From assembly GCF_003473485.1 (NCBI RefSeq), contig NC_053045.1:36554494-36618493 (forward strand): 64,000 nt of DNA. Reading direction: 5' to 3'. Each line of letters starts with the position of its first letter. Within the stretch, counting starts at the first letter, position 1. The notes beneath the pieces were generated by a model. It was not told the origin of the DNA. It searched no databases and saw only the letters and a list, made by a program, of their open reading frames with translations. Shown piece after piece: positions 20,787 to 63,100 of this stretch. Made by a program: the position numbers and the translations under genes. Source of the DNA: Medicago truncatula (taxonomy: Eukaryota; Streptophyta; Magnoliopsida; Fabales; Fabaceae).

Positions 20787-20791
20787 GTGAC

Positions 20792-20970
20792 TGTTGAGAT
20801 ATTGTTTTATTCTTGCTGCTTAATTTAAGGGATTTAGTTCATGTAAAATAGGAAAGGTGTAAATATGAGATTTCCTATTTTCTATTCCTAATTATAGGCT
20901 ATATAATTCTTGTACATGTTCAATAAAACATATATCAATCAGAGAAAAAATATTCTTCTGAAATCAAACT
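20792..20970 (+). repeat. 5' LTR of the intact copia element
   Basis: 179 bp, short for copia. Contains GGCTATATAATTC (TATA-like) and ATAAAACATAT (poly(A)-like), consistent with U3-R-U5 order. Same sequence as 25368-25546. Confidence 0.92.
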
Positions 20971-21001
20971 TGGTACCAGAGCTAGGTCTAAACCTAGTGC
21001 C

Positions 21002-24000
21002 ATGAGCAAATCAGATTCCGAAGATGTTGAAATTGAAACATCAAAAAGGAATCATGAAATCTCTACCACTAAGTCTGCTCCTGCTCCAATTATTATTCAG
21101 TCAGAAAGTTCAACCTTCAATGCAGGGATTATACTCAATGAAACGAATTATGACATGTGGTCTCAGATTATGGAGATGCATCTTGCCGAAAAGGAAAAGC
21201 TATCATTTGTTCGTGGTAACACTCAACCCCCCACAAAAAAAGATGATGGATACGAGAAGTGGTACACCGACAATCAGAAAGTTAAACGGTGGCTGCTGAT
21301 GTCTATGTCTCCAGATATTATGAAGCGGTATATTCGCCTAAAAACTGCCCGAGATATTTGGAAAGCTTTATCAAAGGCCTTTTATGATGGAGCAGATGAA
21401 TTGCAAGTTTTCACATTGAATCAAAGGGCTTTCTCTTCCAAACAGAATGGAAAATCAGTTTCTGTTTATTATGGAGAATTGGTTGAAATTTTCAACGAAC
21501 TGGATCATCGGGACAAGGTGATTATGGAATGTGAAAAAGATGTTGCAGCTTATCACAAGTCAGTTCAGCGACAACGAGTGCACATATTCCTTGCTGGTTT
21601 GGATGGTGAATTCGAACAGATCCGTGGTGAAATCTTGCGCAAAGATCCGGTTCCTGAGTTAGAAGAATGCTACTCAATGGTCCGCCGCGAGTTTGTTCGA
21701 CAAACAACAATGAGTGGAGAATTTGAGAAGCTTGAGGCTTCAGCCATGGTGAGCAGGAACAAAACAAACCAAAATGTTTTTTCTCAAAAACAAGATCGGA
21801 CAAGGAGCAACAAGTCCAACCTTAAGTGCACTCATTGTAATCAATCTAGTCATACTAGAGATCGTTGTTTTGAGCTTGTAGGATATCCAGAATGGTGGGA
21901 TCATAACCGTGACCAGCGAAAGAAGCATCCAGACAGAAATTCCGCTGCTGCAATTGTAGAAACAAATACTGATCTGGAAGATGCTGCTGGGAAAAGCTCG
22001 GCTTTGATAACAACAGGAGGTAATGGTGGTAAGGTTTTAAATTCAGTTGCCTTTGTTTCTAATAGTACATGGATAATTGATTCCGGAGCCACCGATCATA
22101 TGACTTTTGATTCTAGACAAATCTCACCTCTAACACCTTCCTCGCAAAAATTTATTTCCACCGCTAATGGTTCCTCGGCACCTGTTATTGGGGAAGGGGA
22201 TGTATCTCTGACTGATACTTTGAACTTAAATTCTGTTTTAGTTGTCCCATCTTTAGCATACAAACTTTTGTCAGTTTCTAAAATTACTACTGCTTTATCT
22301 TGTGTTGTGATTTTTTGGCCTGAATATTGTGTTTTTAAGGACATCCAAACGAAGCGGACGATTGGTTATGGTACTAGACAAGGGAATCTGTATTACCTGA
22401 ACTTGGAGCCGCATAGCTCAACTCAATTACAACAAGCCTTGACAACAGACAGTATTGAAGAAAAAGGGAGAAAATCAGAGATTTGGCTATGGCATCGACG
22501 TTTGGGGCATGCTTCCTTTGGATACCTTAGAAAATTAATGCCTAATTTATTTAAAAACTTTGATGTTTCAAGTTTCAAGTGTGATGTTTGTGAACTTGCA
22601 AAGAGTCACCGTGCTTCATTTCCATTAAGCATGAATAAAAGTTCAATTCCTTTTATGGTTTTACACTCTGATGTTTGGGGTCCATCAAAGGTGGCTACCT
22701 TAGGTGGATCCCGATGGTTTGTTACTTTTATTGACAATTGTACTAGAATGACTTGGGTATGTTTAATGAAATCCAAAAGTGAGGTTAATTTGTTGTTTCA
22801 AAAATTTCATAAAATGATATGTACGCAATATAATGTCAAGGTGCGAGTTCTACGTAGTGACAATGGGGGGGAATATTTAAGTTCTGAATTTAGGCAGTAC
22901 TTAGAAGCACAAGGAATCGTTCACCAAACTACTTGTCCCGACACACCCCAACAAAATGGAGTAGCTGAAAGAAAAAATCGTCATTTATTGGAAGTTGTCC
23001 GTGCTTTATTGATAGAATCTCATATGCCTCTGTCGTATTGGGGTGAAGCCCTTACCTCAGCAGTATATTTGATTAATAGGGTTCCTTCTAGCACTATTGC
23101 TTTTCAAACACCATTACAGGCCCTTGCTGAAGCAGTTATTGCACCGGCTGTCCCAAACTTGACTCCTCATGTATTTGGTTGTGTAGCATATGTGCACCTT
23201 CATAAGCATCAACGAAGCAAACTAACTCCTCGCGCATTGAGATGTGTCTTTCTAGGATATGCTGCCGATAAAAAAGGATACCGATGCTATCATCCTTCAA
23301 CTAAGAGAATGTTTATTACATTAGATGTTGTTTTCCATGAAAACTCTATTTTTTTTTCCTCTGAGTCAGACCTTCAGGGGGAAAAACAAAAAGAAGTTCT
23401 AACTCTAGATCATGATACTCACGTACAAGAGGAAATAGAACTAACACCACAAGAAGTGGTAGGAAGTATTAGTGATGATAATCAAGAAATGGGAATAGAG
23501 GTTCCAATACTCTCTGAGATATCAACAACATCACAAGATCTTCATGAAGAAATGGGTAATGAAGTAATAGGTAATGAAGAAGCACCACCCGAAGAAATTG
23601 TCGTACCAAACCAATCGTTAGTTGAGGATGCCCTTGATCTAGTTTCTGAACCATCCAGAAAGCAACTTCCACCACGACAAAATAGAGGTATCCCTAAATC
23701 TAGTTATGAACCTGAAATTTCTAGTAAAGCTAGATATCCTTTGAACCATTATGTTTCTAACCATCGTTTGTCAGAATCAAACCGGTCATTTGCAAATCAA
23801 TTATCTGTTGTATCTATTCCTAACAATGTGCAGGAAGCCTTATTAGATCCAAGGTGGACAACAGCTATGAATGAGGAGATGAAGTCCTTAATTAAGAATA
23901 ATACTTGGGAACTCGTTGACATTCCAGCAGGAAAGAAAATAGTTGGATGTCGATGGGTTTATACAGTTAAATACAATGCTGATGGTACCATAGAGCGCTT

Positions 24001-25360
24001 CAAAGCAAGGTTGGTGGCTAAGGGATATACCCAAACGTACGGAGTTGATTATACAGACACATTTGCACCTGTAGCTAAAGTAAATACAATTCGAGTTTTG
24101 TTATCTCTAGCAGCAAACATGGATTGGCCATTACAACAATTCGATGTGAAGAATGCATTTCTTCATGGAGAATTGACTGAAGAAGTCTACATGGAACTTC
24201 CTCCGGGGTGCAAGACACCAGAAGCATATGATAAAAGTGTGTGTAAGTTAAAGAAGGCGCTATATGGGCTAAAACAATCTCCAAGAGCCTGGTTTGGAAG
24301 GTTCACAAAATCTATGAAAGAGTTTGGCTATAGTCAAAGTAATGTAGACCACACTTTATTCATAAAGAAGCATCAAGGTAAAATCACTGCACTTATTGTT
24401 TATGTTGATGACATGGTAGTTACTGGGAATGATGACGAAGAAAGAAAAGCTCTTCAAACCTACTTATCTAAGGAATTTGAAATGAAAGATCTTGGCCCCT
24501 TAAAATATTTCCTTGGTATTGAAGTATCTAGATCAACTAAGGGAATATTTTTGTCTCAAAGAAAATATACTTTAGATTTGTTGGAGGAAACCGGTATGTC
24601 AGCTTGTCAACCAATTGATACACCTCTTGATGGAGGACTGAAATTGTTCTTTGAACCTGATCAAGTTCCAGTCGATAAACGGAGATATCAGAGACTTGTA
24701 GGAAGGTTAATGTATCTAGCACATACAAGACCAGACCTTGCTTATGCATTGAGTGTCATAAGTCAATTTATGCATAATCCGGGAGAGCAACACATAAGTG
24801 CAGTCATGCGTATTCTAAGATATTTGAAATCAGCTCCAGGAAAGGGAATTTTGTTTGCAAAAAATGAAAATCAGCAAAATGTGAGAGTATATACGGATGC
24901 CGATTGGGCTGGATCTATAGATGATAGAAGATCTACTTCAGGTTACTTCACCTTTGTAGGAGGTAACCTTGTTACATGGAGAAGCAAAAAACAGAATGTC
25001 GTTGCACGCTCAAGTGCAGAAGCCGAATTTAGAGGAATGGCACTCGGGTTATGTGAAGCCTTATGGTTAAAACTACTACTTTCAGATTTGGGATATCCAC
25101 CGAAACTACCAATTCTGCTATATTGTGACAATAAAGCTGCATGTGACATAGCTCATAATCCGGTTCAACATGATCGCACTAAGCATGTGGAAGTAGACAG
25201 ATTTTTCATCAAGGAGAAATTGGATGAAAAGATATTGGAGTTACCTATGATTCGTTCAGAGGATCAATTGGCCGATATTCTAACTAAAGCAGTTTCAAGT
25301 CAAGTGTTTTCAAAGGTTGTGAGCAAGTTGGGCATGTGGGATATCTATGCACCAACTTGA
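21002..25360 (+). CDS. Copia gag-pol polyprotein, 1452 residues, uninterrupted
   Basis: Order of parts: gag (NYDMWSQIMEMHLAE near residue 50), zinc knuckle CTHCNQSSHTRDRC from residue 276, aspartic protease WIIDSGATDHMT (Asp 359), GAG-pre-integrase (LWHRRLGHAS), integrase with the D-D-35-E triad (D557 in HSDVWGP, D620 in RSDNGGEY, E656 in NGVAERKNR), reverse transcriptase (YVDDM from 1134) and RNase H (YTDADWAG, Asp 1299, and SSAEAEF). Gag and pol share one frame with no stop or shift, as in plant copia elements. All catalytic motifs are present, so the element may be autonomous. Nothing shows that it is expressed. Confidence 0.96.
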   Translation: MSKSDSEDVEIETSKRNHEISTTKSAPAPIIIQSESSTFNAGIILNETNYDMWSQIMEMHLAEKEKLSFVRGNTQPPTKKDDGYEKWYTDNQKVKRWLLMSMSPDIMKRYIRLKTARDIWKALSKAFYDGADELQVFTLNQRAFSSKQNGKSVSVYYGELVEIFNELDHRDKVIMECEKDVAAYHKSVQRQRVHIFLAGLDGEFEQIRGEILRKDPVPELEECYSMVRREFVRQTTMSGEFEKLEASAMVSRNKTNQNVFSQKQDRTRSNKSNLKCTHCNQSSHTRDRCFELVGYPEWWDHNRDQRKKHPDRNSAAAIVETNTDLEDAAGKSSALITTGGNGGKVLNSVAFVSNSTWIIDSGATDHMTFDSRQISPLTPSSQKFISTANGSSAPVIGEGDVSLTDTLNLNSVLVVPSLAYKLLSVSKITTALSCVVIFWPEYCVFKDIQTKRTIGYGTRQGNLYYLNLEPHSSTQLQQALTTDSIEEKGRKSEIWLWHRRLGHASFGYLRKLMPNLFKNFDVSSFKCDVCELAKSHRASFPLSMNKSSIPFMVLHSDVWGPSKVATLGGSRWFVTFIDNCTRMTWVCLMKSKSEVNLLFQKFHKMICTQYNVKVRVLRSDNGGEYLSSEFRQYLEAQGIVHQTTCPDTPQQNGVAERKNRHLLEVVRALLIESHMPLSYWGEALTSAVYLINRVPSSTIAFQTPLQALAEAVIAPAVPNLTPHVFGCVAYVHLHKHQRSKLTPRALRCVFLGYAADKKGYRCYHPSTKRMFITLDVVFHENSIFFSSESDLQGEKQKEVLTLDHDTHVQEEIELTPQEVVGSISDDNQEMGIEVPILSEISTTSQDLHEEMGNEVIGNEEAPPEEIVVPNQSLVEDALDLVSEPSRKQLPPRQNRGIPKSSYEPEISSKARYPLNHYVSNHRLSESNRSFANQLSVVSIPNNVQEALLDPRWTTAMNEEMKSLIKNNTWELVDIPAGKKIVGCRWVYTVKYNADGTIERFKARLVAKGYTQTYGVDYTDTFAPVAKVNTIRVLLSLAANMDWPLQQFDVKNAFLHGELTEEVYMELPPGCKTPEAYDKSVCKLKKALYGLKQSPRAWFGRFTKSMKEFGYSQSNVDHTLFIKKHQGKITALIVYVDDMVVTGNDDEERKALQTYLSKEFEMKDLGPLKYFLGIEVSRSTKGIFLSQRKYTLDLLEETGMSACQPIDTPLDGGLKLFFEPDQVPVDKRRYQRLVGRLMYLAHTRPDLAYALSVISQFMHNPGEQHISAVMRILRYLKSAPGKGILFAKNENQQNVRVYTDADWAGSIDDRRSTSGYFTFVGGNLVTWRSKKQNVVARSSAEAEFRGMALGLCEALWLKLLLSDLGYPPKLPILLYCDNKAACDIAHNPVQHDRTKHVEVDRFFIKEKLDEKILELPMIRSEDQLADILTKAVSSQVFSKVVSKLGMWDIYAPT

Positions 25361-25367
25361 GGGGGAC

Positions 25368-25546
25368 TGTTGAGATATTGTTTTATTCTTGCTGCTTAAT
25401 TTAAGGGATTTAGTTCATGTAAAATAGGAAAGGTGTAAATATGAGATTTCCTATTTTCTATTCCTAATTATAGGCTATATAATTCTTGTACATGTTCAAT
25501 AAAACATATATCAATCAGAGAAAAAATATTCTTCTGAAATCAAACT
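25368..25546 (+). repeat. 3' LTR of the intact copia element
   Basis: Identical to the 5' LTR over all 179 bp. Preceded by the polypurine tract and followed by the GTGAC duplication. Confidence 0.92.
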
Positions 25547-25551
25547 GTGAC

Positions 25552-26104
25552 GTGACATATTTGAATAAAAAAAAATTATTATTATTATTTTTATCATTAC
25601 TAAATATTTAAAATTAAATAAATACTTACTATTGTGTGTTCTATTTTATGTGGGACCCCCACATTCTATTTTTTTAATTCACACCGCACTAGATCAAAGT
25701 TTTATTATTACTTGATATTTAATCTTCCGACGTTTCAATTTTCTACCAACTTAACAATAATGTTCCAATATTATCAAATCACATGGAGTATGCTATCTCC
25801 AAAAATTTGTTGGACTATGAAAGTTTCAATCACTTGCCTCATACCTGGATAAAAAAAACCAAAACCTATCAGTCCTCAATCTAATATGGATCATGCTAAG
25901 GTTTTTAGTGATCTCTTGCATCACATGGAGTCAAAGATTTTTTGTTTTGTTTTATACTTATATCTATATACTCACATTTTCTACTCATATGTGCGTGTTG
26001 CATTTCTATACACTAACAATTCGTAAAAGCTTAATTGTGACCTCTATTCAAAGCAAGAAATTTATAATTATGGGGAAAAAACTCATAATTAATACTTGAA
26101 GCCT
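25552..26104. other. AT-rich spacer before the RBR cluster
   Basis: Starts with TTATTATTATT repeats. No gene or element recognised. Confidence 0.5.
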
Positions 26105-26600
26105 AATTGAATATGATCAAAAAACTCAATCTTAGCATTTTCATCCTCGGGAAGATAGTATTCATATACATAACTCCATCTCATAACTCTTCGACATTCA
26201 ATTACCTGTTTCCATGCATCCTTAAAATTAAGATAAGTTGAAGAGCCTTTTTTCTTGCAATTTCATTGTTAGCCCAACCATGATATCCAAATAACTTTTT
26301 TCGTAGTTTCGTAGCACTTCATTTCCAAATATCTCTTGAAATTCCTGAACTTGTTGTAAGCGATTGGAACCGTTGCAAATACACGGAGAGTGGAGACATA
26401 ACCAGCAAAATTGGAACCCACATTTGCATGTCATATGATTCAGGACATGGTTTTGTGTTGGCAACAATCCAACCACTAGTAGTGATCTTAAATTCGGAAC
26501 TAATATTTTTCATCCATTTAGCAACAGTTTCACAATCCACAGGTGTATGAGCTTCTTCATCACAATTCTAACAAAAACTATGATAACAATGACATGTAAC
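26105..26600 (-). pseudogene. Decayed RBR (Ariadne-type) ubiquitin ligase fragment
   Basis: Closest to the intact neighbour at 27231-28604. It starts mid-IBR: SFC, then a stop (TAG at 26578-26580) where the neighbour has Trp, then NCDEEAHTPVDCETVAKWMK. After TKPCP about a dozen residues are missing at roughly 26431-26445, including the RING2 catalytic Cys, and the frame changes before HMTCKCGFQFCWLC. Further on, part of the Ariadne region is lost and shifted again (VQEFQEIFGNE, later WSYVYEYYLPEDENAKIEFFDHIQ). Similarity ends at about 26105. The upstream half is replaced by a LINE fragment. It cannot make an active ligase. Confidence 0.85.
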
Positions 26601-26607
26601 ATCACCA

Positions 26608-26823
26608 CTACAATCCATAAATTTTTTGTTTCCACACCGCCATTGCAAAATCACATGATTTAAACAAGTGATCATCCACCTCTCTTACCGACTGACCACA
26701 TGCACGACAATTCCACCCCCATTCCCAAATTGACCAAATTCCTTCTTGTAGGAAGACGTCGAAGCAACAATTGCCACGAGAATGCCATAACCTTTGAAAG
26801 TTCATATAACGAAAAAATGGCAT
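26608..26823 (-). mobile_element. LINE fragment (zf-RVT domain) abutting the RBR pseudogene
   Basis: Minus-strand frame with WNCRACGQSVREVDDHLF and CDFAMAVWKQK, the Cys-x2-Cys...His...Cys pattern of the zinc-binding domain following LINE reverse transcriptases. Only this piece is seen. It occupies the place where the RING1 half of the RBR copy should be. Confidence 0.7.
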
Positions 26824-26879: not shown

Positions 26880-27230
26880 TTTTAACATTGTTGCATTTCT
26901 AGAATTTGAATTCGAGACATTTTAGTTAAATAGATAGAGACTCGTGTCATCTCATTCAAGCGGTCTTGAATAATTCAAGTAACTTTAATATTAAACCAGT
27001 TAAAGAGTTCAAATAGATTACCTACAAATGACAATATTATTGCAAATCTACAAAATTCATCAACTTAAAATTCAAAAGTAAAACAATGGTAAACAATAAA
27101 AATAAAAACATGTATGTGGATCAAAGTAATGTTTGAACCTAATTCAATGACAGGCCATGGTTGGTAGAGCCAAAATTGTTATCTCTACATACTTCACATG
27201 GTCATGTATCAATTTCACTTGACTCCCTTT
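26880..27230. repeat. 3' flank of the intact RBR gene, duplicated at about 29985-30370
   Basis: Shared phrases include GAGACATT(T/C)TAGTTAAA, GACTCGTGTCAT and AATTCAAAAGTAAA-type runs, in the same order in both places. Non-coding. It shows that the gene and its downstream DNA were duplicated together. Confidence 0.7.
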
Positions 27231-28604
27231 TTAAACCGCAGCATAGTTTTTCACACACACTACCTCTAAACCGTTATCTAGTTCTTTTACCAAATTCATG
27301 AAATAACTTTTAGCCACCCGAGCCCTAGTGGTTAGCTTCGTCCGAAAATCACAAAATTCTTCCTCGGACCCATTATGTAGAAGTTGCTTTCTTAATCCAT
27401 TTTCTGCAAAATGATGAAGCCTATCCAAAACAACTTGAGCTATGCTTTGGATGTGATCAAAAAACTCAATCTTAGCATTTTCATCCTCGGGAAGATAGTA
27501 TCCATATACATAACTCCATCTGAGAATTCTTCTGCATTCAACTATGTGTTTCAATGCATCCTTTACCATGAAATTACCGAAATTAGTTCCAGACTTTTTT
27601 CTTGAAATTTCATTGTTTGCCCAACCTTGATGGTAGTAAGTGTACCTATCCAAATGATTTTTTGCATGGTTTCTTTGCATTTCATCTCCAAATAACTCTT
27701 GAAATTCCTGAACTTGCGCGCAATTGACACCATCACGACAATTAGAGAAATCGCGGAGACATAGCCAGCAAAATTGGATCCCACATTTGCATGACATATG
27801 ATTACATCCATTGTTTTTCTCAATTGGTGTCTTACATTTAGGGCATCTTTTTGTGTTAGCAATAATCCAGCCATTAGTAGTGATCTTAAATTCAGAACTC
27901 GTCTTCTTCATCCATTTAGCAACAATTTCACAATCAACAGGTGTGTGAGCTTCTTCACCACAATTCCAACAAAAGCTATGATAACAAAGACATGTAACAT
28001 CATAATTTATTCTAGAACTACTTGAACCGTGATGATATGGTAATTCATAACTTATAGCATTACAACAATCTGGAGCAGGACACCACTTCAATTTCATGTT
28101 ATTGTTGTTTTCAACATAAGAACGAAAGAAAAATTGATCGTATTTAATCTTTCTTGACTCACTTGCTAATTGTTGAATCATGTCTTCATCTACAGCTGCA
28201 TTACAAGAAGGCTCAGGGCATTTGAGTTTGAAGCAGTTATGATCATCGATATGGGTATCAACGTATTGATTCCAGCAATTGATGCAAAATGAATGACGAC
28301 ACCATGATGATCTAATCGCTTCGCTAGAAAAGATTTCTAAGCAAATACCACAAATGAGAGTATGTGATGAGTAGGCAAGCCCTAATTCTATGTGGGTTTC
28401 GTTCGATAAGCCTATGGCATTTCGAACTTTTTGTTGGTTATCAAACCATGATTCTGAAGCTTGAGTGACATTCCAATTGTAATGGGAGAGTAAAAGACAT
28501 GCAACTGGTCTTGATACAAAGAGAATTGATGAAAGATGATTGATGTCAGCATCTTGAAGGCGCTTTATGTCAGATTCACTCAAAACATAAAAGTGTTGTT
28601 CCAT
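27231..28604 (-). CDS. RBR E3 ubiquitin ligase, Ariadne type, intronless and intact
   Basis: Transfers ubiquitin through a RING2 Cys after loading from an E2 on RING1. It is one frame of 457 residues from ATG 28604. An N-terminal UBA-like part (to about residue 70) contains LLLSHYNWNVTQA. RING1 has C85, C88, C102, H104, C107, C110, C129 and C134. IBR has C175, C180, C205, C207, C212, C215, H220 and C225. RING2 starts at C254/C257, with the active-site Cys C267 in NNGCNHM and C272, C274, C279 and C282 after it. The Ariadne region (about 340-450) carries the helical ECRRILRWSYVYGYYLPEDE. The lack of introns may mean an ancient retrocopy, as in many plant ARI genes. Expected in cytosol or nucleus; substrate unknown. 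Confidence 0.93.
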   Translation of the reverse strand: MEQHFYVLSESDIKRLQDADINHLSSILFVSRPVACLLLSHYNWNVTQASESWFDNQQKVRNAIGLSNETHIELGLAYSSHTLICGICLEIFSSEAIRSSWCRHSFCINCWNQYVDTHIDDHNCFKLKCPEPSCNAAVDEDMIQQLASESRKIKYDQFFFRSYVENNNNMKLKWCPAPDCCNAISYELPYHHGSSSSRINYDVTCLCYHSFCWNCGEEAHTPVDCEIVAKWMKKTSSEFKITTNGWIIANTKRCPKCKTPIEKNNGCNHMSCKCGIQFCWLCLRDFSNCRDGVNCAQVQEFQELFGDEMQRNHAKNHLDRYTYYHQGWANNEISRKKSGTNFGNFMVKDALKHIVECRRILRWSYVYGYYLPEDENAKIEFFDHIQSIAQVVLDRLHHFAENGLRKQLLHNGSEEEFCDFRTKLTTRARVAKSYFMNLVKELDNGLEVVCVKNYAAV

Positions 28605-30370: not shown

Positions 30371-30802
30371 TCAAGTATTCAGCTTCTTATATGAGTTGTC
30401 ACCAATTTCACTTAACACCCTTTTCACACCAGTGTAGTTTTTCACACACACAACATCTAAACCATTCTCTAATCCACTAACCAAATTCATAAAATAACTT
30501 TTAGCCACCCTAGTGAGGGTGGTTAGCTTCACCTGAAAATCACAAAATTCTTCCTCTGACCCATCGTTTAGAACCTTTCTTAATTCACTTTCTGCACAAT
30601 GACGAAGGCGCTCCAAAGCAACCTGAGCTATGCTTTCTATGTGCTCAAAAAACTCAATCTTAGCATTTTCATTCTCAGGAAGATAGTATCCATATACATA
30701 AGCCCATTTGAGAACTCTTCTACATTCAACCAATTGTTTCAATGCATCCTTTATGAAATCAAAATAAGTTTCTGACTTTACCCATGATATACCAACTCTC
30801 TT
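30371..30802 (-). pseudogene. C-terminal (Ariadne region) half of the split RBR gene
   Basis: Continues the frame of the N-terminal half at 36283-37419 once the retrotransposon and one TATAT copy are removed. The codon after Ile379 of that half is AAG at 30802. It reads KRVGISWVKSETYFDF and then DALKQLVECRRVLKWAYVYGYY, ending at a stop at 30371-30373: 143 codons plus stop. No internal stop or shift, so decay since the insertion is small. The frame is also open backwards into the LTR to an ATG at 30859, giving a chimeric frame of 162 residues. Confidence 0.9.
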
Positions 30803-30807
30803 TATAT

Positions 30808-31526
30808 TGTTGGGCTCGACGAGCTTAACGCAAGTGTAAATTAAAATTCCAAAATCCAAAAGAGACTGGATCTTGCAGCGCAGCGGTAGCGATAAAAAAA
30901 ATTAACACCAATATTTAACGTGAAAAACCCTCTAATACCGAGGGAAAAACCACGGGACAAACTCCGAAAAATATTCCACTATATTAAAGAATATTACAAT
31001 ATTCTCTCCACTCTCTCACACACACAAGAGATACAATATAGTGTTTCCCGTGAGACCTACTTCTATTCTAATGCTATTATTTTATAGCACCTAGAAGTTA
31101 TAGAGATGATACCCACCCGGTGTATTTTTCCCACACTCTCTGGATTTACTCAACACTCTATTTTTCCTCTCACACACTTCTACACACACAGAAGCTTTGT
31201 ATTTTCACTTCTGCTTCGATGCTTTCCTTCAATTCCATTGCCTCTATTTATAGGGGAAATGAGCCGTAAGAGTTGGATTTGGTTCACACACTCTTACACC
31301 AAAAGTCATGACATTCAGAGTGTGAAACTTGAAATGAATTGCAAGCCTTCACACTTTTCTGCACAGCAAGCTATGCCTAGCCATGTCTCTCCACCGTAAG
31401 CTATACCATAGCTTTCCTATTTGTAGAAAAATGCATCCTTGCATTAAATAGGTAGAAGACTATTTACAATTACTTGTAGTAATTGTCTTTGGCTGGAAAC
31501 AATACCCACACGTGGTGGGGCCAACA
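30808..31526 (-). repeat. 3' LTR of the RBR-disrupting copia element
   Basis: 719 bp. Its U5 end abuts the C-terminal half of the RBR gene and supplies an in-frame ATG (30859) with 19 codons before the native sequence. Confidence 0.93.
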
Positions 31527-31568
31527 ATTCTCCCCCTCCAGCCAAAGGGAGATATCATCGCAATTCAT

Positions 31569-34500
31569 TCACCTGCGATCCATGCCGAACAACTCGGCAC
31601 AAAGTTGAAGCTTTTCACGTGCTACAACTTTCGTCAACATATTCGCGGGATTTTTATCGGTGTGAATCTTTTCCAACATAAATTGTTGTTCTTCCGCTGC
31701 TTGACGCAGCCAATGATATCTGACATCAATATGCTTTGTACGAGAGTGGTACATCGCATTCTTACTCAAATCCAAAGCGCTTTGACTATCGCAATGGATA
31801 ACGTACCTTTCCTGCTTCATTCCCAATTGATCAAGAAATCTTTTTAGCCAAAGCATTTCCTTCCCTGCTTCAGCCATGGCAATATATTCTGCCTCGGTTG
31901 TTGATAAGGCTACACATTTTTGCAATTTAGATTGCCAAGATACAGCTCCCCCTGCAAAAGTAAACACAATTCCTGAAGTAGACTTTCTACCATCCAGGTC
32001 ACCTGCCATATCAGCATCTGTGTAGGCTTTCAAAATCGAATTTGATCCTCCAAAGCATAAGCACTTATTAGAGCTTCCTTTCAGATACCTCAAGATCCAC
32101 TTCACAGCTTCCCAATGTTCTTTTCCCGGATTGGAAAGAAACCTGCTAACAACTCCAACTGCATGAGCAATATCTGGCCTGGTGCAAACCATTGCATACA
32201 TCAAACTCCCAACTGCTGAGGAGTAAGGTATTGCAACCATAGCTTCTTTTTCATCTTGACTAGTAGGACAACTCACTCTGCTGAGTTTAAAGTGATTGGC
32301 TAACGGCGTGCTAACTGGTTTAGCACCCTTCATGTTGAATCTTTCTAGAACCCGGTCCACATACTGTTGTTGTGACAACCATAGCTTTCTAGCTTTTCGG
32401 TCTCGCAAAATCTTCATGCCTAAGATTTGCTTTGCAGGGCCTAGATTTTTCATGTCAAAGGATTTTGACAATTCCTTCTTCAAATCACCAATCATATCCT
32501 CGTCTTGCCCCACTATCAACATATCATCTACATATAACAGAATGATGATGAATTTGTTACCTCGAAATGTTTTGACATATACACAATGATCTGCATCTGT
32601 CTTGGTATATTCATGACTCATCATGAACGAGTCAAATTTCTTATACCATTGTCTTGGTGCTTGTTTTAATCCATACAAGCTCTTCTTCAATTTGCAAACC
32701 AAGTGCTCCTTTCGAGTCTTCTTAAATCCTTCTGGTTGAACCATGTAGATCTCTTCATCTAAATCTCCATGAAGAAATGCAGTCTTTACATCCATTTGTT
32801 CAAGCTCCAAATCCAAGCTAGCAACTAATCCGAGTATAACTCGAATTGAACTCATCTTAACAACTGGAGAGAAGATTTCATCAAAATCTATTCCTCGCTT
32901 TTGTCCAAAACCTTTTACGACTAAGCGAGCTTTGTACTTCACTAGCTTGTCACCATCTTTCTTGAGCTTGAACACCCATTTATTCTTCAAGGCTTTTCTG
33001 CCTTCAGGAAGTTTCACAAGTTCATAAGTATCATTTTTCTGCAATGAATCCATCTCTTCTTGCATTGCTTTCATCCATTGGATTTTATCCTTATGAGTTT
33101 GAACTTCATCGAAACTTTCCGGCTCCCCCTCATCAGTGATGAGGATGTACTCCGAACTAGGGTACCTGGTAGATGGATGATGATCTCTGCTTAATCTCCT
33201 GAGATGAGATGTTGTGGATTGCTCTCCATCTTGAACATCTTCATCATCACCATCTTCAACTACTGGCTCACCATCAACCCCAGGGTCTTCATCAAGATCT
33301 CCCCCTTCTGTGGCAACTCTTACAGGAGGAGTGGTAAGTGTAAGATCAACCTTACCATAACGTTTAGGTGTTTCTAGAATAGCAGAATCTGACATAGTTT
33401 CTTGCTTATGAAACACTACATCTCTGCTTCTAATAATTCTTCTCTTCTCTGGATCCCATAACCTGTAGCCAAATTCCTCATCTCCATAGCCCACAAATAT
33501 GCAAGGAATGGCTTTATCATCAAGTTTTTGTCTATGCTCCTTATTTACATGAGCAAAGGCTTTGCATCCAAATACCTTCAGGTGAGAGTAACTTATATCA
33601 TGTCCGGACCATACTCTCTCAGGAATATCAAAGCCCAAAGGAACAGATGGAGATCTGTTAATCAGGTAGCATGTGGTTTGAACAGCTTCTCCCCAAAATG
33701 GCTTTGGCAGCTTAGCCATTTTCAGCATACATCTCACTTTCTCCATAATGGTTCTGTTGATTCTTTCAGCTACACCATTATGTTGTGGGGTGCCAGGAAC
33801 CGTCTTCTCATGTCTGATGCCGTGCTCAGAACAATAACTTTTAAATTCATGGGAAGTATATTCACCCCCATTATCCGAACGAAGACACTTCAAAGATTTA
33901 CCAGTCGATCTCTCCACCATCGCATGAAACCTTTTGAAGTACTGAAACACCCGATCCTTACTTTTAAGGAAGTACACCCACACCTTTCTTGAAGCATCAT
34001 CAATAAACGTCACAAAATATCTGCTACCACCAAGAGTCTCCACTTCCATGGGTCCACACACATCAGAATACACCATATCCAATTTATTACCTTTCAGCTT
34101 TGAAGTTCTGCTGAAAGAAACTCTATGTTGCTTGCCAAACAAACAATAATCACAAGGATTCAACTTAGTACCTTTGCCAGACGGAATGAGGGACTTCCTT
34201 GACAAAATTTGCAATCCTTTTTCACTTAAATGAGCCAGCCTTTTATGCCACAAATCTGGCAAAGCAACATTCTCGACCGCATTCAAGCCATCTTTGATCA
34301 GCTTGACTTGAGTTTTGTAAAGCGTCGAATACACGGCGCCTCTAGCAATCATCAACGATCCTTTGGTAAGTTTCCATTTTCCATCACCAAAGTTGTTTTG
34401 AAATCCGGCTAAATCAAGAGCATGGACAGAGATTAGATTTAGACGCAAATCTGGCACATGTCGCACGTCCTTCAGTGTTAGTGTAAAATCGGTATTGGTT

Positions 34501-34586
34501 TGAACACACACATCACCAATTCCAACAATATCTGCAATGCTATTATTGCCCATCTTTACTTTGCCAAAGTCTCCTACTTTGTACAT
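31569..34586 (-). pseudogene. Copia pol region (integrase, RT, RNase H), cut off from gag and the protease active site
   Basis: Open for 1005 residues from about 34586. It contains GAG-pre-integrase (LWHKRLAHLS), integrase (YSDVCGP, RSDNGGEY, NGVAERINR), reverse transcriptase (AFLHGDLDEEIYM, YVDDM) and RNase H (YTDADMAG, TTEAEYIA). Just upstream the codons lead through the protease Asp-Ser-Ala motif, but a TAA stands where this family normally has a sense codon before Trp-Val-Ile-Asp-Ser (about 34645). The pol frame is therefore not continuous with gag. Confidence 0.9.
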
Positions 34587-34711
34587 CGTAAAGAATTCTT
34601 TATTGGAAGTAGCGTGATAAGAAGCTGCTGAGTCAATGACCCATTAAACACATGAATCTGCAAGATGACATTCTTCTTCTTCAACAGAAAGCAACACCAC
34701 TTCCCCATCAA

Positions 34712-35515
34712 CTACTGGGGTTGTGGTATTTTCATCTTCGTCTGGTCTTTGATTCCTCCGGTCCTTCTTTTCTTTGTTCTTCCAAGATTTGCAATTTCTT
34801 TTGATGTGACCTTCTTCGCCGCAGTGAAAACACTTGAACTTTCTTCGAGGTTGAGATTGTGATCTGTCTTGGATTTATTGGATCTCCCCCCGCTCTTGCT
34901 TCTGCCTCTGTTCTCCGTGACAAGGGCCTGAGAGCTACTTGATCCCATGTCTTTTCTTCTTGTTTCTTCATTGAACATACTATCTTTTACCTGGGACAAA
35001 GTGAGCGCTCCATCTGGAGCAGAGTTGCTTAATGACACCACCAAAGTCTCCCAACTTTCTGGCAAAGAACTCAAAAGTAATAGTGCTTGTAATTCATCAT
35101 CCAGCACCAACTTCATGGCAACCAATTGGTTTACCAAGTCTTGAAAGTCACTCAAGTGCTCGGCAACTGATCTTCCCTCCCGATACTTTAGATTCACCAA
35201 CTTTCTAATAGCGAAAGTTTTGTTTTGTGCGTTCTTTCTTTGATACATCTTTTCGATGTTCTTCCACAGAGTCTGGGCATTTGTCTCTGTGGCCACATGG
35301 TGGAATACACTAAGATCCACCCACTGCCTAATCAGACTAACAGCCTTCCGATGAGACTTTTTCCAGTCTTCATCCGTAACCTTATCTGGCTTTGTGTCTC
35401 CCTTTTCTACAGGATCATACATATCCTTGTAGTAAAGTATATCCTCCATTTTTGGCTTCCAAATGGAGTAGTTTGTAGAAGTGAGTTTAATCATCGTACC
35501 AGTGTTCTCCTCCAT
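34712..35515 (-). pseudogene. Copia gag with a frameshift before the zinc knuckle
   Basis: Starts at ATG 35515 (MEENTGTMIKLTSTNYSIW) with typical UBN2-type gag sequence (VSLIRQWVDLSVFHHVATET). Near 34866 the frame shifts, so the CCHC zinc knuckle (CFHCGEEGHIKRNC at about 34791-34832) is read out of frame and the protein ends at 34712 with an unrelated tail. The gag is thus truncated and lacks its nucleic-acid-binding motif. Confidence 0.88.
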
Positions 35516-35563
35516 TTAATTTACACTATACTCTCGAGCTCCAATCGGAGCTCTGATACCACT

Positions 35564-36282
35564 TGTTGGGCTCGACGAGCTTAACGCAAGTGTAAATTAA
35601 AATTCCAAAATCCAAAAGAGACTGGATCTTGCAGCGCAGCGGTAGCGATAAAAAAAATGAACACCAATATTTAACGTGAAAAACCCTCTAATACCGAGGG
35701 AAAAACCACGGGACAAACTCCGAAAAATATTCCACTATATTAAAGAATATTACAATATTCTCTCCACTCTCTCACACACACAAGAGATACAATATAGTGT
35801 TTCCCGTGAGACCTACTTCTATTCTAATGCTATTATTTTATAGCACCTAGAAGTTATAGAGATGATACCCACCCGGTGTATTTTTCCCACACTCTCTGGA
35901 TTTACTCAACACTCTATTTTTCCTCTCACACACTTCTACACACACAGAAGCTTTGTATTTTCACTTCTGCTTCGATGCTTTCCTTCAATTCCATTGCCTC
36001 TATTTATAGGGGAAATGAGCCGTAAGAGTTGGATTTGGTTCACACACTCTTACACCAAAAGTCATGACATTCAGAGTGTGAAACTTGAAATGAATTGCAA
36101 GCCTTCACACTTTTCTGCACAGCAAGCTATGCCTAGCCATGTCTCTCCACCGTAAGCTATACCATAGCTTTCCTATTTGTAGAAAAATGCATCCTTGCAT
36201 TAAATAGGTAGAAGACTATTTACAATTACTTGTAGTAATTGTCTTTGGCTGGAAACAATACCCACACGTGGTGGGGCCAACA
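35564..36282 (-). repeat. 5' LTR of the RBR-disrupting copia element
   Basis: 719 bp, one base different from the partner LTR. It faces the RBR N-terminal half; host transcripts entering it may be polyadenylated there. Confidence 0.93.
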
Positions 36283-37419
36283 TATATATGCAGTACTATT
36301 CATCTCAATCAAATTTTGAAGAGCCTTTTTTCTTAAAATTTCATAGTAAGTGTACTTATCCAAACAATTTTTTGCATTGGTTCTTAGCATTTCATCATCA
36401 TATATCTCTTGATGAGAATGCCAAACTTGTACATTATTTAAAGTGCCGCTGCAACCATTTTTTATACATATAGACATATCACGGAGGCATAACCAGCAGA
36501 AGGAAAACTTACATAATCTGCACCTCATGTGTCTGCACCCTTGGTTTTTCTCAATAGCTATTTTGCAATTAGGACATGGTTTTGTGTTAGCAATAATCCA
36601 ACTATTATTTGTAACCTCAGAATCAGAACTAATCTTTCTCCTCCATTTAACAAAAGTTTCACAATCCACGGGTGTATGAGCTTCTTCACCACAATTCCAA
36701 CAAAAGCTATGATAACAATGACATGTAACATCATTATTAAATCTAGGGCTAGACTCTGATAATAATTGATCATGACTTATAGCATAACAACAACAATTTG
36801 GAGCAGGACACCACTTCAATTTCCTATCACTGTTGTTTTCCACGTAAGACCGAAAGAAAAATTGATCATATTTAATCTTTCTTGACTTACTTGCAAGTTG
36901 ATGAATCATGTCTTGATCAACAGCTGCATTACAAGAAGGTTGAGGGCATCTAAGTTTGAAACAGTTAAGATCATCGATGTTTATATCGACATATTGATTC
37001 CAGCAGTTGATGCAAAATGGATGACCACACCATGATGACTTGATTTTATCACTAGCAAAGGTTTCAAAACAGATATGACACATGGTGAGAGTTTGTGATG
37101 AGTTTGGAAACCCTAATTCTAAGTGGGGTTGGTTGGACAGGCCTATGGTTTTTTGAACTTTTTGTGGGTTATCAAACCATGATTCCAAAGCTTGAGGGAC
37201 ATTCCAATTGTAGTTGGTGAGTAAAAGACATGCAGTAGATCTTGATGTGGAGAGAACTGATAAAATGTGATTGATGCCATTGTTTTGAAGATGCTTTATG
37301 TCGGATTCATTCAAGACTGAGAAGTGATTGTCATCTTCAGCAATGGGTGAGTAATCATCGTCGTCGTCAACAATGGAGGAGTAATCGTCGTCGTTTTCCA
37401 TGCGTGATGGTAAGCTCAT
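36226..37419 (-). pseudogene. N-terminal half of the split RBR gene; encodes a truncated RBR module
   Basis: From ATG 37419 it is open for 397 residues. 379 are native (to Ile379 at 36283); the last 18 are LTR-encoded. RING1: C114, C117, C131, H133, C136 and C139. IBR is complete (WCPAPNC to TPVDC). RING2 has C282, C285 and the active-site C295 in NQGCRHM, then FCWLC. The N-terminus carries Asp-rich repeats (DDDDDYSPIAEDD). The whole catalytic RBR module survives, but the Ariadne region, which in human ARIH1 masks the active Cys, is severed by the copia element. Whether the truncated protein is made is unknown. Confidence 0.9.
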
Positions 37420-38321: not shown

Positions 38322-41300
38322 ATGGCGACGCTGCAATTCACATTCTCAGACTCAACTACCACACTATGCAGACCGTTATCTCAATTACCTTCTTCTAAAT
38401 CCACCATCATTCATTCTCCGAGACCTCGAAGCTTCGTTGTTAAAGCTTCTCTCGAACCTTCCAGAACCAGAAGACAGTTCATTGCAGAAACCACTGCTAT
38501 ATCAGTGCTGCTTCCTTCTCAGTTGGCCAAATCCGAAGAAACTCTTTCTGAATGGGAAAGAGTTTATCTTCCTATCGATCCTGGTGTTGTTCTTCTTGAT
38601 ATCGCTTTTGTTCCTCAAGATCCTAATCATGGTGATAATCATTTCATTCTCTTGCTTTTTTTTGTTTTGTTTAACTTCATAATTGTGATTTGGAGCTGAA
38701 ACTTCAAATTGATTTTGCCTACATTGTATGACTGGAATTAACTTATCTGAGCTTATTTATGAGTATAAGCACTTTTGAAGAGCTTATGGAAACAATTTAT
38801 GACATATCCATAAGCTCTTTTCAGCTTATTTTCATAAGTTCTCTAGGATAGCTTATTCGAAAATAGTATGGCTTTAATTTATCTTTTGTTACAGAAATAT
38901 TTTATATATATTGATAAAAAAAAATAAAAACATACGCACTTATATGATAAGCGCCTATGCTATACTCGATTAAACTGTTTATCCAATAGAAATGATAACA
39001 ACTATTTTTTTGTGTTGGATTGAATAAAGTGCACTAATTTCTGCATCAAATTTGTTTCTAATGTAGAAGGATGCAAACATAAATTACTTCTCTTTAAAAC
39101 GTAATTAAATTTTACAAAATTTAGGTACTATTTGGATAAACACCTTAACTGAGCTCTTATAGCATAAGTGCTTATGTATACACTACCTGTTTTGATAAGC
39201 CACTTATTTTGCAGCTTATAACATAAGTGCTTATCACATTAGCGCTTATCATATAAGTTCTTATGAATAGGCTATTTCTTTAGTCAAAGATAAAAAAAGT
39301 GAAACTGCTTTCGAAAGAGCTATAAGTTGTTTTCATAAGCTATAATGAAGAGCTTATGAAAATAAGCCAAAAACAACTTATGAAAATGTCATTAGCTGTT
39401 TTCATAAGTTCTCCAAACAATCTCACAAGTGTTTATGCTAGTAGATAAACTTAAATAAGTCAATCCAAACAGACCCATATTTCTATGAAAAAAGATAAAA
39501 TAAAGCCAAACTGTTTTTATAGGCTATCTTGGAGAGCTTATGGAAATAAGGTGAAAATATCTAATGGACATGTCATAAGTTGGTATTCTTAAGCTCTTCG
39601 AAACAGTCTTACAAATGCTTATGTCATTAGATAAGCTCAAATAAGCCAATTTGAACAAACCCTATTTCTATTCCAAATCATGTTTACGAAATGCTTGTGT
39701 AATTAGTCTGTTTTTGTTGTAAAATGGAAACGGATTTGTCCTGGTAGGTTTTCTTCTGGGGACGAGGCAAACCCTTTTGGAGACTAAAGATGGAGGAAGA
39801 ACTTGGGCTCCACGTTCTATACCATCTGCAGAAGATGAAGATTTTAACTATAGGTTTAATTCTATCAGCTTCAAAGGGAAAGAAGGATGGATCGTAGGAA
39901 AACCTGCAATTCTGTTGTACACTCCTGATGCTGGAGAGAGTTGGGAAAGGATACCACTCAGTGCTGAACTTCCTGGCGATATGGTATACATGCTTCATCC
40001 AAATCCAATGCTTGTTTCTACCACTACAAATACTATTTAATTTTATTAGGAGGAGGAGGAGGAGGAGGAGGAGGAGTATTGGTGGCAGTAGTTTTTTTAA
40101 GGACATAGCTTTTGCGTTGAGTTGGAAAATTTACTCTAATTTTTGCGTCAAACTTGCTTTCAGATTTAAAATCCAAATATTAATCGCATGAATCAATTCA
40201 ACTGTACAAAAGTAACTGTTGGAACATATGCAACAACATTAACTCTACTCAAAAAGCATGTTCATCAAATGCTCACATAAGTTGTTAAATGTGCAGGTAT
40301 ACATAAAGGCAACTAATGAGAAGAGTGCGGAAATGGTGACTGATGAAGGTGCAATATATGTTACCTCAAACAGAGGATACAATTGGAAGGCTGCTGTTCA
40401 GGAATCGGTGTCGGCTACTCTTAATAGGTGAGTTTCCGAGAGACAAAAAATAAAACTTCATTTGATGTAACTGTCTGAGAATGCATAATGTATATGGATG
40501 GATGGATCCATAATGCCATTTAAGGAATGTGACTCTTTCAAGCTAGGAAGTGAACTAAGCCAATACAAGAGTAGCAATATGAAAAGTCGTATTAATACAT
40601 TTGGAAGTAGGGTGGTCTTTTATGATGCTATTAATGAACAAATTCAACTTCTTATTTATATGTTTAGTAATCTCTTTTGACGCGCTATCTTTCATACTTT
40701 CTACACTGCAAATATTTTATTTCAGTTTTATACATGACATTTATCTAGCTATGTTGCCTCTTCAGAACAGTTTCTAGTGGTATTAGTGGTGCAAGTTATT
40801 ACACTGGAACTTTCAATACTGTCAATCGATCTCCCGATGGAAGGTATGTTGCAGTCTCAAGTCGTGGCAACTTCTACATGACCTGGGAGCCTGGTCAGGT
40901 GAGGCTTTTACTTTGTGATGGCTTTTGCTTTTGCTTCTATTTGATTGGTAGTTTTACTTTTGGTATGCCTGTGGTCTATCTAAGTGTACAGGAATATTGT
41001 TACACTTACATCATTGTTGCACGTTGAAACAAAATAGTTTGATACATTAAATATATTCTTAGGAGTATTAACACTTTGGTTAAAACTCAATATATACTAA
41101 ATTTTAGCACAATGGATGCCAAGAATCTTCTTGTACATCCACTACTTTTAAGAAAACATTTTGGTTTCTTCTTTGTTTGATTTCATCCAGGCGATATCAT
41201 TGATTGGATAGACCTCCTGAAGAAAAATTCTGCTAACATACAAAATTATAAAAGATCCTCTCTTTTGCTTTTTGCACTGATTAAACCTGTACTTTCTTCC

Positions 41301-60152: not shown

Positions 60153-63100
60153 TCAAGTGGGTCTCCAACTAACAGTAGTAATGTCTGGCCTGCCAGGCAA
60201 CATCTGAGGAACACCATGTCCTGGAAGAAGGGAACAATGAGATTTATTAGATCCATAATTCATAAAACTAATTTCTTAACAGCTAAAGATCAATACAGCG
60301 AAGAAAAGCAAAGAATAAAACAAGCAATGAAAAAATTAATTAAAGGTCACCTGGTACTGGTGCACTAGGTAGGGTGCTTGAAACTGCTCGATGAAAACCT
60401 ACATTGCTTAATGGAGGCCTTTCAAGTGGTGGTCGGAAACCTTCATTGCCATTATAAAAAAAAGTTATGAATGACATTCAGAACGTAATACAAAGATTTT
60501 AAGGTAATCAGCAACAAAAATAAATAAATAGTAAAACTAAAAAAATATAAGGAAAAGAACCTCCACAAGCTGGAAAATAGATTAACATACCTTCTTGCCC
60601 AAAGGGAGGGCCTGTAGGATTTATCCCTCTCCATACAACATTTTGATGTTGATTGTTTGTCGATGACATTCTCCTTTGCTCATCACTAACAAATTGCCTT
60701 AGGTTATCTGGAAGAGATGGTAAAGGAAATGGAGGATGGAATGTATGTGGAAGGTGTTGCTGAACTGTCTGATTTGTATATGAAAACTGATTTGATGGAT
60801 TTTGGGGTGGGGCAGGATGTGTATGTCTCTGAACATATGGGGTGTTACCCTGCTGATACTGATGGTTAGGTTGATGAACTTGGGCATTTATATACAAATC
60901 ATTCTGTCCGTATTCTAATTGTCTACTGAAGTCATGAGGTACATTCTGCTGATACCCCAACTTTGGGGATGACTGATAGGACTGAGGTGGCATTAATGAT
61001 TGGGAGACATGTGAAGGCCGAGCCAGTCCAGACGATTGAGGAACCAATGATACTGGTGGGGCTGAGGATGGTAAAGAAAGAGGCAATGGTTGCAATATTG
61101 GAGGTGGTGGTGGTGGTGGGGGAGGAGATGGAGATGATGGAGGAGGAGGTGGAGGTGGTGAAGAAGGCAAAGGTGGGGTTGGAGGAGGTGAATCAAGAGG
61201 TAATGGAATGGAACCCTCAGGAGTAGCCAATATGTCTTCTGCAATATCTGAAGTTGGGTCTAAATTCCTATTTGAGCTCTGAAGAAGCATATCAGTTTCG
61301 ACAGAACTGTCCAAATATACAGGTTTCTCATCCTTTGGGTGACCTGAAACATCTTCCATTTCTAGCTCACCATCCACATCCTCCAAGATACAATGGCGCT
61401 TGTCATTTGGGGTCACAGTGTCGGTTTCTGATCCTCCAAACTTGGGTGTGGGATCTACTGGAGATGTACCATACATATCTGTACATGAATTGATTGGTAA
61501 ATCTTCTTCGTCCTCATCTTCATCAAATGCATGGCAAGACAAAAAGCCAGGCAGCTGAAATGTTGCATTACTGATACAACACACATGAATACAACAAGAA
61601 TCAGATATCCAAATTACATTTTTTAACAAATAAAGTGGTAATAGAAAAGAAAACAAGAAATACACAGAAAAGCTTGGTAACATGGCCAATATAATCCTTA
61701 AAAAAAAAAAAAACATGGCCAATATAATAAATGTTGTATATCATGGCATCAGGCATTCTATTTGACAGTTGATTATTTGCTCCTGTTCATGTTGTTTCAA
61801 TATTTTGTTCAGAATACTGCTTAACTGTAATAGGAGAGTATAATAGGTCAGCAATCAGTCGGAACTTGTCTCGTCTAAAAAAATAGTGAACTCCAAAAGG
61901 AGTCGCTATTCATAGCAATTTAGATAACATAAATTACTTTGCTGCATCATTTCAGAATTGAGAAATTACTATTTCTCCTGGGTTTGAACAAGGATAAACT
62001 AATTGTGCAAAATTGACCAGCAACTCATGATAGGAAAAACATGAATTTATGGAATCAACCTAAAAAATTGATGGAACAAGTACCAGACCTTCCATATTCA
62101 TCAACAAGCATGCCTTCCATTTCTCTAATTGGGTCATCCACAGATCGCTCAGCACGAGATGGACGTCTGAAGGAAAAGCTAACTGTGATATCATCATTTG
62201 AAACCCCAATTTCATCCATGTAATGGCGAATAACGGACTCAGGCAAAATTTTCCTCTCAAGCCACAACCTCAAAACCTGCAAACCACCCAAAATAGAAAA
62301 TATACATATTCAAACAAAATTTAATTTCAATGAATGAGGTAAAGTTGTAGTCAAGGTCAAGTAATGCTGTAATTGTCATTCATAAAACATGATCACATAG
62401 GGCCCAATTTGAGGAAAAGAACCATGAAGCTGTTTGCAATGCTGGATGAATTTGATGTTTTCCCCATAAACCTCCCTTCCCCTGACATTGGTGTTATTTG
62501 CATTTCAATTCAGAAAAGTAGCCCATTTATTTATTTCTAAGTGGTGATGACCCAACTTCCCTTGGAATAAGTTGTTTAAGATGCAGCATTAATCTAATGT
62601 TATCATCTTTACTTTGAATCATCGTCCATGTTTGTTCTAAAAATATTTTGAAGATTGAAGTGGCAAATTCAGTGGTGATGGGTGATTTTCACACTATAGA
62701 CATGGTGAATTTAATCGCAGTGGAACGCCAACATCAATTTCAATCAGAGACAAGGTTTTGAATAAATGAAACAACGGCCTCTCTCTAGGGCTCTTGTGCA
62801 TGTTTCCCGGCACTTTCCTCCACTAATATGCAAAGAAACTAACTGGCTAGCTTTGTTGCATTATTTGTATTTATTTTCTTTCTTGTTTTTTTTTAGGATT
62901 TCAATGCATTCTAATCCTCCTCCTATTTCTACTCTGCCTCATTCCCTTAATACAATATCTTTTGTTGTTGATAAAAAAAAAAAAAAAAAAAAAACTGACC
63001 TTGTGACATTGACGACGATTTTCACGGGCACTAGCTCCAGGGGGAGCAGCAGCACCTAGAAGACGTGGCAGCGCTGCTTGAACTGTAGGGATGTAAGAAG

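Follow-up and report, generated by a model that had tools for sequence, protein, structure and literature searches.

A recent copia insertion within the predicted Ariadne domain of a tandem RBR ligase gene of Medicago truncatula, probably a loss-of-function allele

Analysis of a 64,000-nucleotide stretch of the Medicago truncatula genome (the window, C4:36554494-36618493) revealed a copia element at 30808-36282 on the minus strand inside gene A, a single-exon Ariadne/RBR gene spanning 37419 to 30371 on the same strand, such that gene and element share one reading direction. The insertion cut the reading frame and separated most of the Ariadne domain from the RBR module. It is probably a recent event in a tandem Ariadne-type gene that acts mainly through loss of function and is tolerated via paralogues, with a null or near-null allele being more likely than a deregulated fragment. 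The insertion clearly broke the gene in an ordinary way and adds another example to a familiar type of event, and no prior report of it was found in the open-licence literature among the matches listed. Gene A is one of three tandem copies (A, B, and C), an array that had been overlooked when the DNA was previously described. The gene, its tandem copies, and the element comprise the following features:

36283-37419, minus strand: N-terminal part of gene A, codons 1-379, with acidic N-terminus, UBA-like domain, RING1, IBR, RING2, and the start of the Ariadne region
36283-36287: target-site duplication TATAT, right copy
36226-36282, minus strand: LTR-derived end of the truncated frame, 18 codons and stop
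35564-36282, minus strand: 5' LTR of the copia element, 719 bp
34712-35515, minus strand: copia gag frame, 267 aa (Retrotran_gag_2, E 5.2e-39)
31569-34586, minus strand: copia pol frame with pre-integrase, integrase, and reverse transcriptase (RVT_2)
30808-31526, minus strand: 3' LTR of the copia element, 719 bp, differing from the 5' LTR at one position
30803-30807: target-site duplication TATAT, left copy
30371-30802, minus strand: C-terminal part of gene A, codons 380-522 and stop, with the remainder of the diverged Ariadne region
27231-28604, minus strand: gene B, open tandem paralogue of 457 codons, 62% identical to A over 486 columns (E=0.0)
about 26047-26622, minus strand: copy C, a decayed fragment of the same gene with homology spread over three frames

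Excision of 30803-36282 brought ATA (Ile379, ending at 36283) against AAG at 30802 in the same frame, and the rejoined gene A comprised 522 codons with no internal stops. Joining the flanks therefore reproduced the in-frame junction and the stop-free length that had been claimed in a sequence-only reading of this DNA. The rejoined frame is not a product of chance because paralogue B aligned with it on either side of the junction and phmmer aligned the joined protein to human ARIH1 across the junction (E about 1e-48). Of the five phmmer alignments shown, four started at query residue 28 and reached residue 446 or 450, and the fifth was to ARIH2; a chance open frame was ruled out by this homology together with the neutral simulations given below. 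The present frame of gene A contains 397 codons, made up of 379 from the gene and 18 from the LTR with the stop ending at 36226, and it thus terminates in the LTR where the same reading had placed its end. No in-frame ATG was identified near the start of the C-terminal part.

The element displayed the attributes of the Ty1/copia group, including LTR termini of TG..CA on each strand, a 5-bp target duplication, and copia-type domains in the order gag, integrase, and reverse transcriptase, with integrase upstream of reverse transcriptase. The sole mismatch between the two LTRs was at 30903/35659. On the minus strand, the 5' LTR was directly followed by TGGTATCAGAGC, which we take to be a primer-binding-type stretch, and a G-rich tract was positioned just before the 3' LTR. 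The domain search recovered the pol frame as three separate pieces. The gag and pol frames were separated and in different reading frames, and a single uninterrupted gag-pol frame was absent; autonomous copia elements usually carry gag and pol in one frame, a property not required for family membership, and this copy may be non-autonomous. The LTR contained a TATA-like box at position 275 and AATAAT at position 446, with the polyadenylation-type signal AATAAA being absent from it. Misplacement of the element during assembly is extremely improbable, given that both the 5-bp duplication at canonical LTR ends and the in-frame junction are exact. The presence of another haplotype with an empty site in this assembly was rejected, as one of eight matches spanned the whole N-terminal query and this match was the window itself.

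At substitution rates of 1.3e-8 and 6.5e-9 per site per year, one difference in 719 positions corresponded to 53,000 years (Poisson range 1,400-298,000) and 107,000 years (Poisson range 2,700-596,000), respectively. The near identity of the LTRs and the TATAT duplication bore out the earlier description of a young copia element splitting an RBR gene. Its age looks ordinary for M. truncatula, since a survey of this species that dated 526 full-length LTR elements placed 90% of them within the last 0.52 million years and gives an LTR element half-life of 0.26 million years (PMC2533021). An LTR search of the genome scored 37 candidates and yielded 50 matches. Two further copies of the family with both LTRs were compared and had 5/708 and 6/708 LTR differences, and the search hints at additional, more broken LTR pairs beyond those compared. 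Among the LTRs compared at full length, the nearest was a single LTR on C1, bordered by CTAAC at either end, that differed in 9 of 718 aligned columns plus 34 gap columns. The alignment between L043 and the window LTR (222 mismatches in 419 columns and 591 gap columns) was left out as an orientation artefact.

A single family LTR at C2:8580893-8581609 (L042) had TGCATATATA just upstream and a 5-bp duplication identical to that of the window insertion. A common site for the two was rejected, with the 10 identical bases of TGCATATATA and the same duplication accompanied by flanks that otherwise gave short matches at chance level, and the recurrence of TGCATATATA perhaps reflects a target preference. 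Furthermore, six of the 50 LTR matches started at LTR position 304-307, and some of these loci also matched roughly the first 60 bases separately. Taken with the TATA-like box at position 275, these match starts suggest that subfamilies of the LTR have R-U5 in common and have exchanged most of U3.

Gene A is an Ariadne-type RBR E3 ligase gene with predicted ligase activity. Pfam matches included IBR (62.8 bits, cut-off 24.3), IBR_1 (41.4 bits, cut-off 27), and the UBA-like domain PF21235 (28.7 bits, cut-off 26.9); RING1 models scored below cut-off and the C3HC4 pattern of RING1 was present. The part retained upstream of the insertion contained a RING1-IBR-RING2 module with the RBR Cys/His ligand pattern, preceded by an acidic N-terminus with 12 Asp/Glu in the first 32 residues. 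The candidate active Cys295 (GCRHMRC) aligned with the Cys of GCNHMVC in ARIH1, which is presumably Cys357. A C357S mutant reported for HHARI is in line with this assignment (PMC3817463). Retention of the ligands and of candidate Cys295 upheld the view that RING1, IBR, RING2, and the active Cys stay in the N-terminal frame.

The break point was shifted relative to the sequence-only reading, which had placed it between the RBR module and the Ariadne region. By hand count on the 557-residue chain, Ile379/Lys380 corresponded to about ARIH1 438/439, a few residues past F430/E431, and these two residues with E503 constitute a structure-based ARIH1 mutant (PMC3817463). The Pfam Ariadne profile PF19422 scored 18.2 bits with the joined protein (from query residue 349, profile 11-136) and 21.5 bits with the C-terminal part of gene A alone (profile 59-138), both below the cut-off of 23.5. 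The PF19422 matches on either side of the junction, taken with the ARIH1 alignment, place the insertion within the predicted Ariadne domain, and by our reading of that alignment the cut appears to follow the first helix of the domain.

The position of gene A as one of three tandem copies means that the related open copy B remains, with its start codon 2204 bp downstream of the 3' end of the copia element. Homology between A and B continued beyond their stop codons (families D9 and D12-D15), identifying them as DNA-level tandem duplicates. Gene B had no acidic N-terminus, was missing about 21 alignment columns within the Ariadne region, stopped earlier, and gave no Pfam Ariadne match at E 0.01. 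A TAA flagged inside the B match was dismissed, the match reaching window position 27228 and thus beyond the B stop at 27231-27233. Searching the genome (429.9 Mb, 42 contigs) with the joined protein produced at least 44 matches, and among the matches listed, the top three loci outside the array were an intronless C5 copy and two C3 relatives (33.04 and 33.06 Mb). Each C3 relative had one intron, as judged by splice signals alone, and A and B were without introns; both C3 relatives aligned through the Ariadne domain and matched PF19422 with 38.3 and 39.2 bits (above the cut-off of 23.5). The intronless Ariadne copy at C5:43972705-43973637 carried two in-frame stops and appears to have arisen from a C3-type gene as a retrocopy. 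In addition, a short piece of A/B-type IBR region was identified at C4:46389945-46390193 within a 204-codon open stretch.

Gene A had evolved under constraint before the insertion. NG86 comparison of A and B over 447 codons gave a Ks of 0.47 and a Ka/Ks of 0.41 (bootstrap 0.30-0.54), with regional Ka/Ks of 0.25 (0.16-0.38) in the RBR, 0.56 (0.29-1.29) for codons up to 112, 1.35 (0.66-3.60) for codons 326-379, and 0.44 (0.23-0.83) from codon 380 onward. A second estimate was obtained with a custom-written maximum likelihood pairwise codon model and likelihood-ratio comparison to omega=1, yielding omega values of 0.37 overall (2dlnL 35.6), 0.21 in the RBR (2dlnL 42.3), and 0.36 after codon 380 (2dlnL 7.7). 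This model did not reject omega=1 for codons 1-112 alone (omega 0.66, 2dlnL 0.93) or for codons 326-379 alone (omega 1.36, 2dlnL 0.33). The signal is mostly pairwise and the constraint therefore common to A and B. A three-taxon branch test over 437 codons, in which one of the C3 relatives served as outgroup, gave omega 0.26 on A and 0.52 on B. Omega=1 was rejected for the A branch (2dlnL 5.28) and was not rejected for the B branch (2dlnL 1.04); equal omega on A and B was not rejected (2dlnL 0.74), and restriction to the RBR rejected omega=1 for neither A (2dlnL 0.73) nor B (2dlnL 2.78). This branch test is weak because the outgroup branch was saturated and a single optimiser start was used. 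At the 369 sites where both C3 proteins agree, 18 unique changes were counted in A and 34 in B (chi-square 4.9), with no significant difference in relative-rate tests split by region. If anything, A seems better preserved than B, in which the acidic N-terminus is missing along with a portion of the Ariadne region.

Neutral drift on the A branch would be expected to introduce about 10-15 stops, and none was seen; three branch lengths were simulated 2000 times each under neutrality, and the frame did not stay open in any run. The omega values and the absence of stops therefore indicate that the element struck a still-constrained copy in a segment without constraint, in agreement with the previous claim that an intact gene was hit. 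It could be argued that the array was already of little use, as a pseudogene-like lineage in which the insertion had no consequence, and such a history would fit the decay of copy C, the unconstrained codons 326-379 around the insertion (omega 1.36), the in-frame deletions and missing Pfam Ariadne match of B, and the stops in the related single-exon C5 copy. This history is unlikely for a gene that was open over 522 codons with an A-B omega of 0.21-0.25 in the RBR (0.37-0.41 overall), where neutral decay would have left the stops estimated above. Since the insertion itself, 0.05 stops are expected, and the open N-terminal frame of today is therefore uninformative on present function.

The favored course of events begins with the recent insertion of a copia element from a low-copy family into gene A of the tandem single-exon array, with element and gene oriented alike. 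Transcripts from the gene A promoter would then enter the 5' LTR and terminate within it, or be silenced along with the element, and host silencing of the element may take gene A along with it. Termination by the LTR near AATAAT at position 446 would produce a 3' UTR of some 400 bases. The 397-codon product, without most of the Ariadne domain, would be made little or not at all, and the insertion would be tolerated because paralogues remain in the form of B and the two-exon pair elsewhere in the genome.

A stable LTR-terminated transcript could alternatively give rise to a deregulated truncation, the outcome raised in the sequence-only reading. Such a product would be an RBR with acidic N-terminus and UBA-like domain that would act independently of its usual trigger once released from Ariadne inhibition. 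The retained RBR Cys/His ligand pattern and Cys295 would be compatible with such activity, Ariadne-deleted HHARI is reported to be artificially activated and to react with Ub-VME (PMC3817463), and a truncated HpARI allele is a candidate at the Hypericum apospory locus (PMC3904995, PMC7553744, PMC3747320). However, HHARI Ariadne mutants were less abundant in cells (PMC3817463), and A and B share a Cys at RING2 position 318, which is His in both C3 relatives. A deregulated product is rather improbable. Still harder to credit is an array encoding two complementary, differently regulated halves, with truncated A as an open "RBR without Ariadne lid" ligase and B as a form with a shortened Ariadne region and without the acidic N-terminus. 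Truncated A would in this case retain its acidic N-terminus and UBA-like domain, which in HHARI/TRIAD1 are required for cullin binding (PMC3817463).

The disrupted gene A can be compared with several known systems, described here as in the excerpted text of the cited sources. In soybean, LTRs and a target duplication likewise mark a copia element inside the RBR gene GmARA54, although this element is intronic and reported as sparing the splice site whereas the element in gene A cuts the coding frame (PMC3904995). Another truncated plant Ariadne allele is that of HpARI (ARIADNE7-like) at the Hypericum perforatum HAPPY locus; pistil expression and linkage to a trait are described for the apomictic HpARI allele, while gene A is described here at the sequence level, and the excerpted texts contained no statement of a transposon as the cause of the HpARI truncation (PMC3904995, PMC7553744, PMC3747320). 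The delta-ARI form of HHARI/ARIH1 resembles truncated A in retaining the RBR with the Ariadne domain wholly or mostly lost, but it is an engineered human protein (PMC3817463), and truncated A arose naturally and still carries the beginning of the Ariadne region as well as 18 LTR codons. Intronless Arabidopsis AtARI3/4/6, given as retroposed copies, are single-exon like A and B (PMC3904995), and two of 16 Arabidopsis Ariadne members are called pseudogenes (PMC4503874). Unlike AtARI3/4/6, A and B are DNA-level tandem duplicates that had been under purifying selection. The locus thus offers a clean, recent natural truncation of a once-selected E3 ligase copy beside an open paralogue, and it would permit a direct test in the plant of whether loss of the Ariadne domain creates a null or an over-active allele. 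If null, the insertion would be an ordinary step in tandem-duplicate turnover.

Additional searches returned no Rfam matches at the gathering threshold and no tRNAs. With the N-terminal part of gene A as query, a viral-contig search gave one stretch that fit the pattern and this was not confirmed as a relative (0/1). Structure models of B and truncated A built from 7-row alignments had mean pLDDT of 40.8 and 44.9, respectively, and were too poor to use. Elsewhere in the window, a second copia element was identified at 20789-25546 on the plus strand with identical 182-bp repeats, one uninterrupted 1452-codon frame, and GTGAC adjoining both ends. About 0.5 kb separates its end from copy C, and B and C are thus bracketed by two young copia elements. 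Beside copy C, the minus strand at about 26630-26700 translated to CGQSVREVDDHLFKSCDFAMAVW, which in our view is reminiscent of the zinc-finger end found in reverse transcriptases of plant LINEs. A 404-codon open frame with a TTG start at 60508-61722 (minus strand) had no Pfam match at 0.01. An open frame at 38322-38699 on the plus strand, head to head with gene A at a distance of 902 bp, also had no Pfam match, and in our view recalls the N-terminus of the chloroplast photosystem II assembly factor HCF136.
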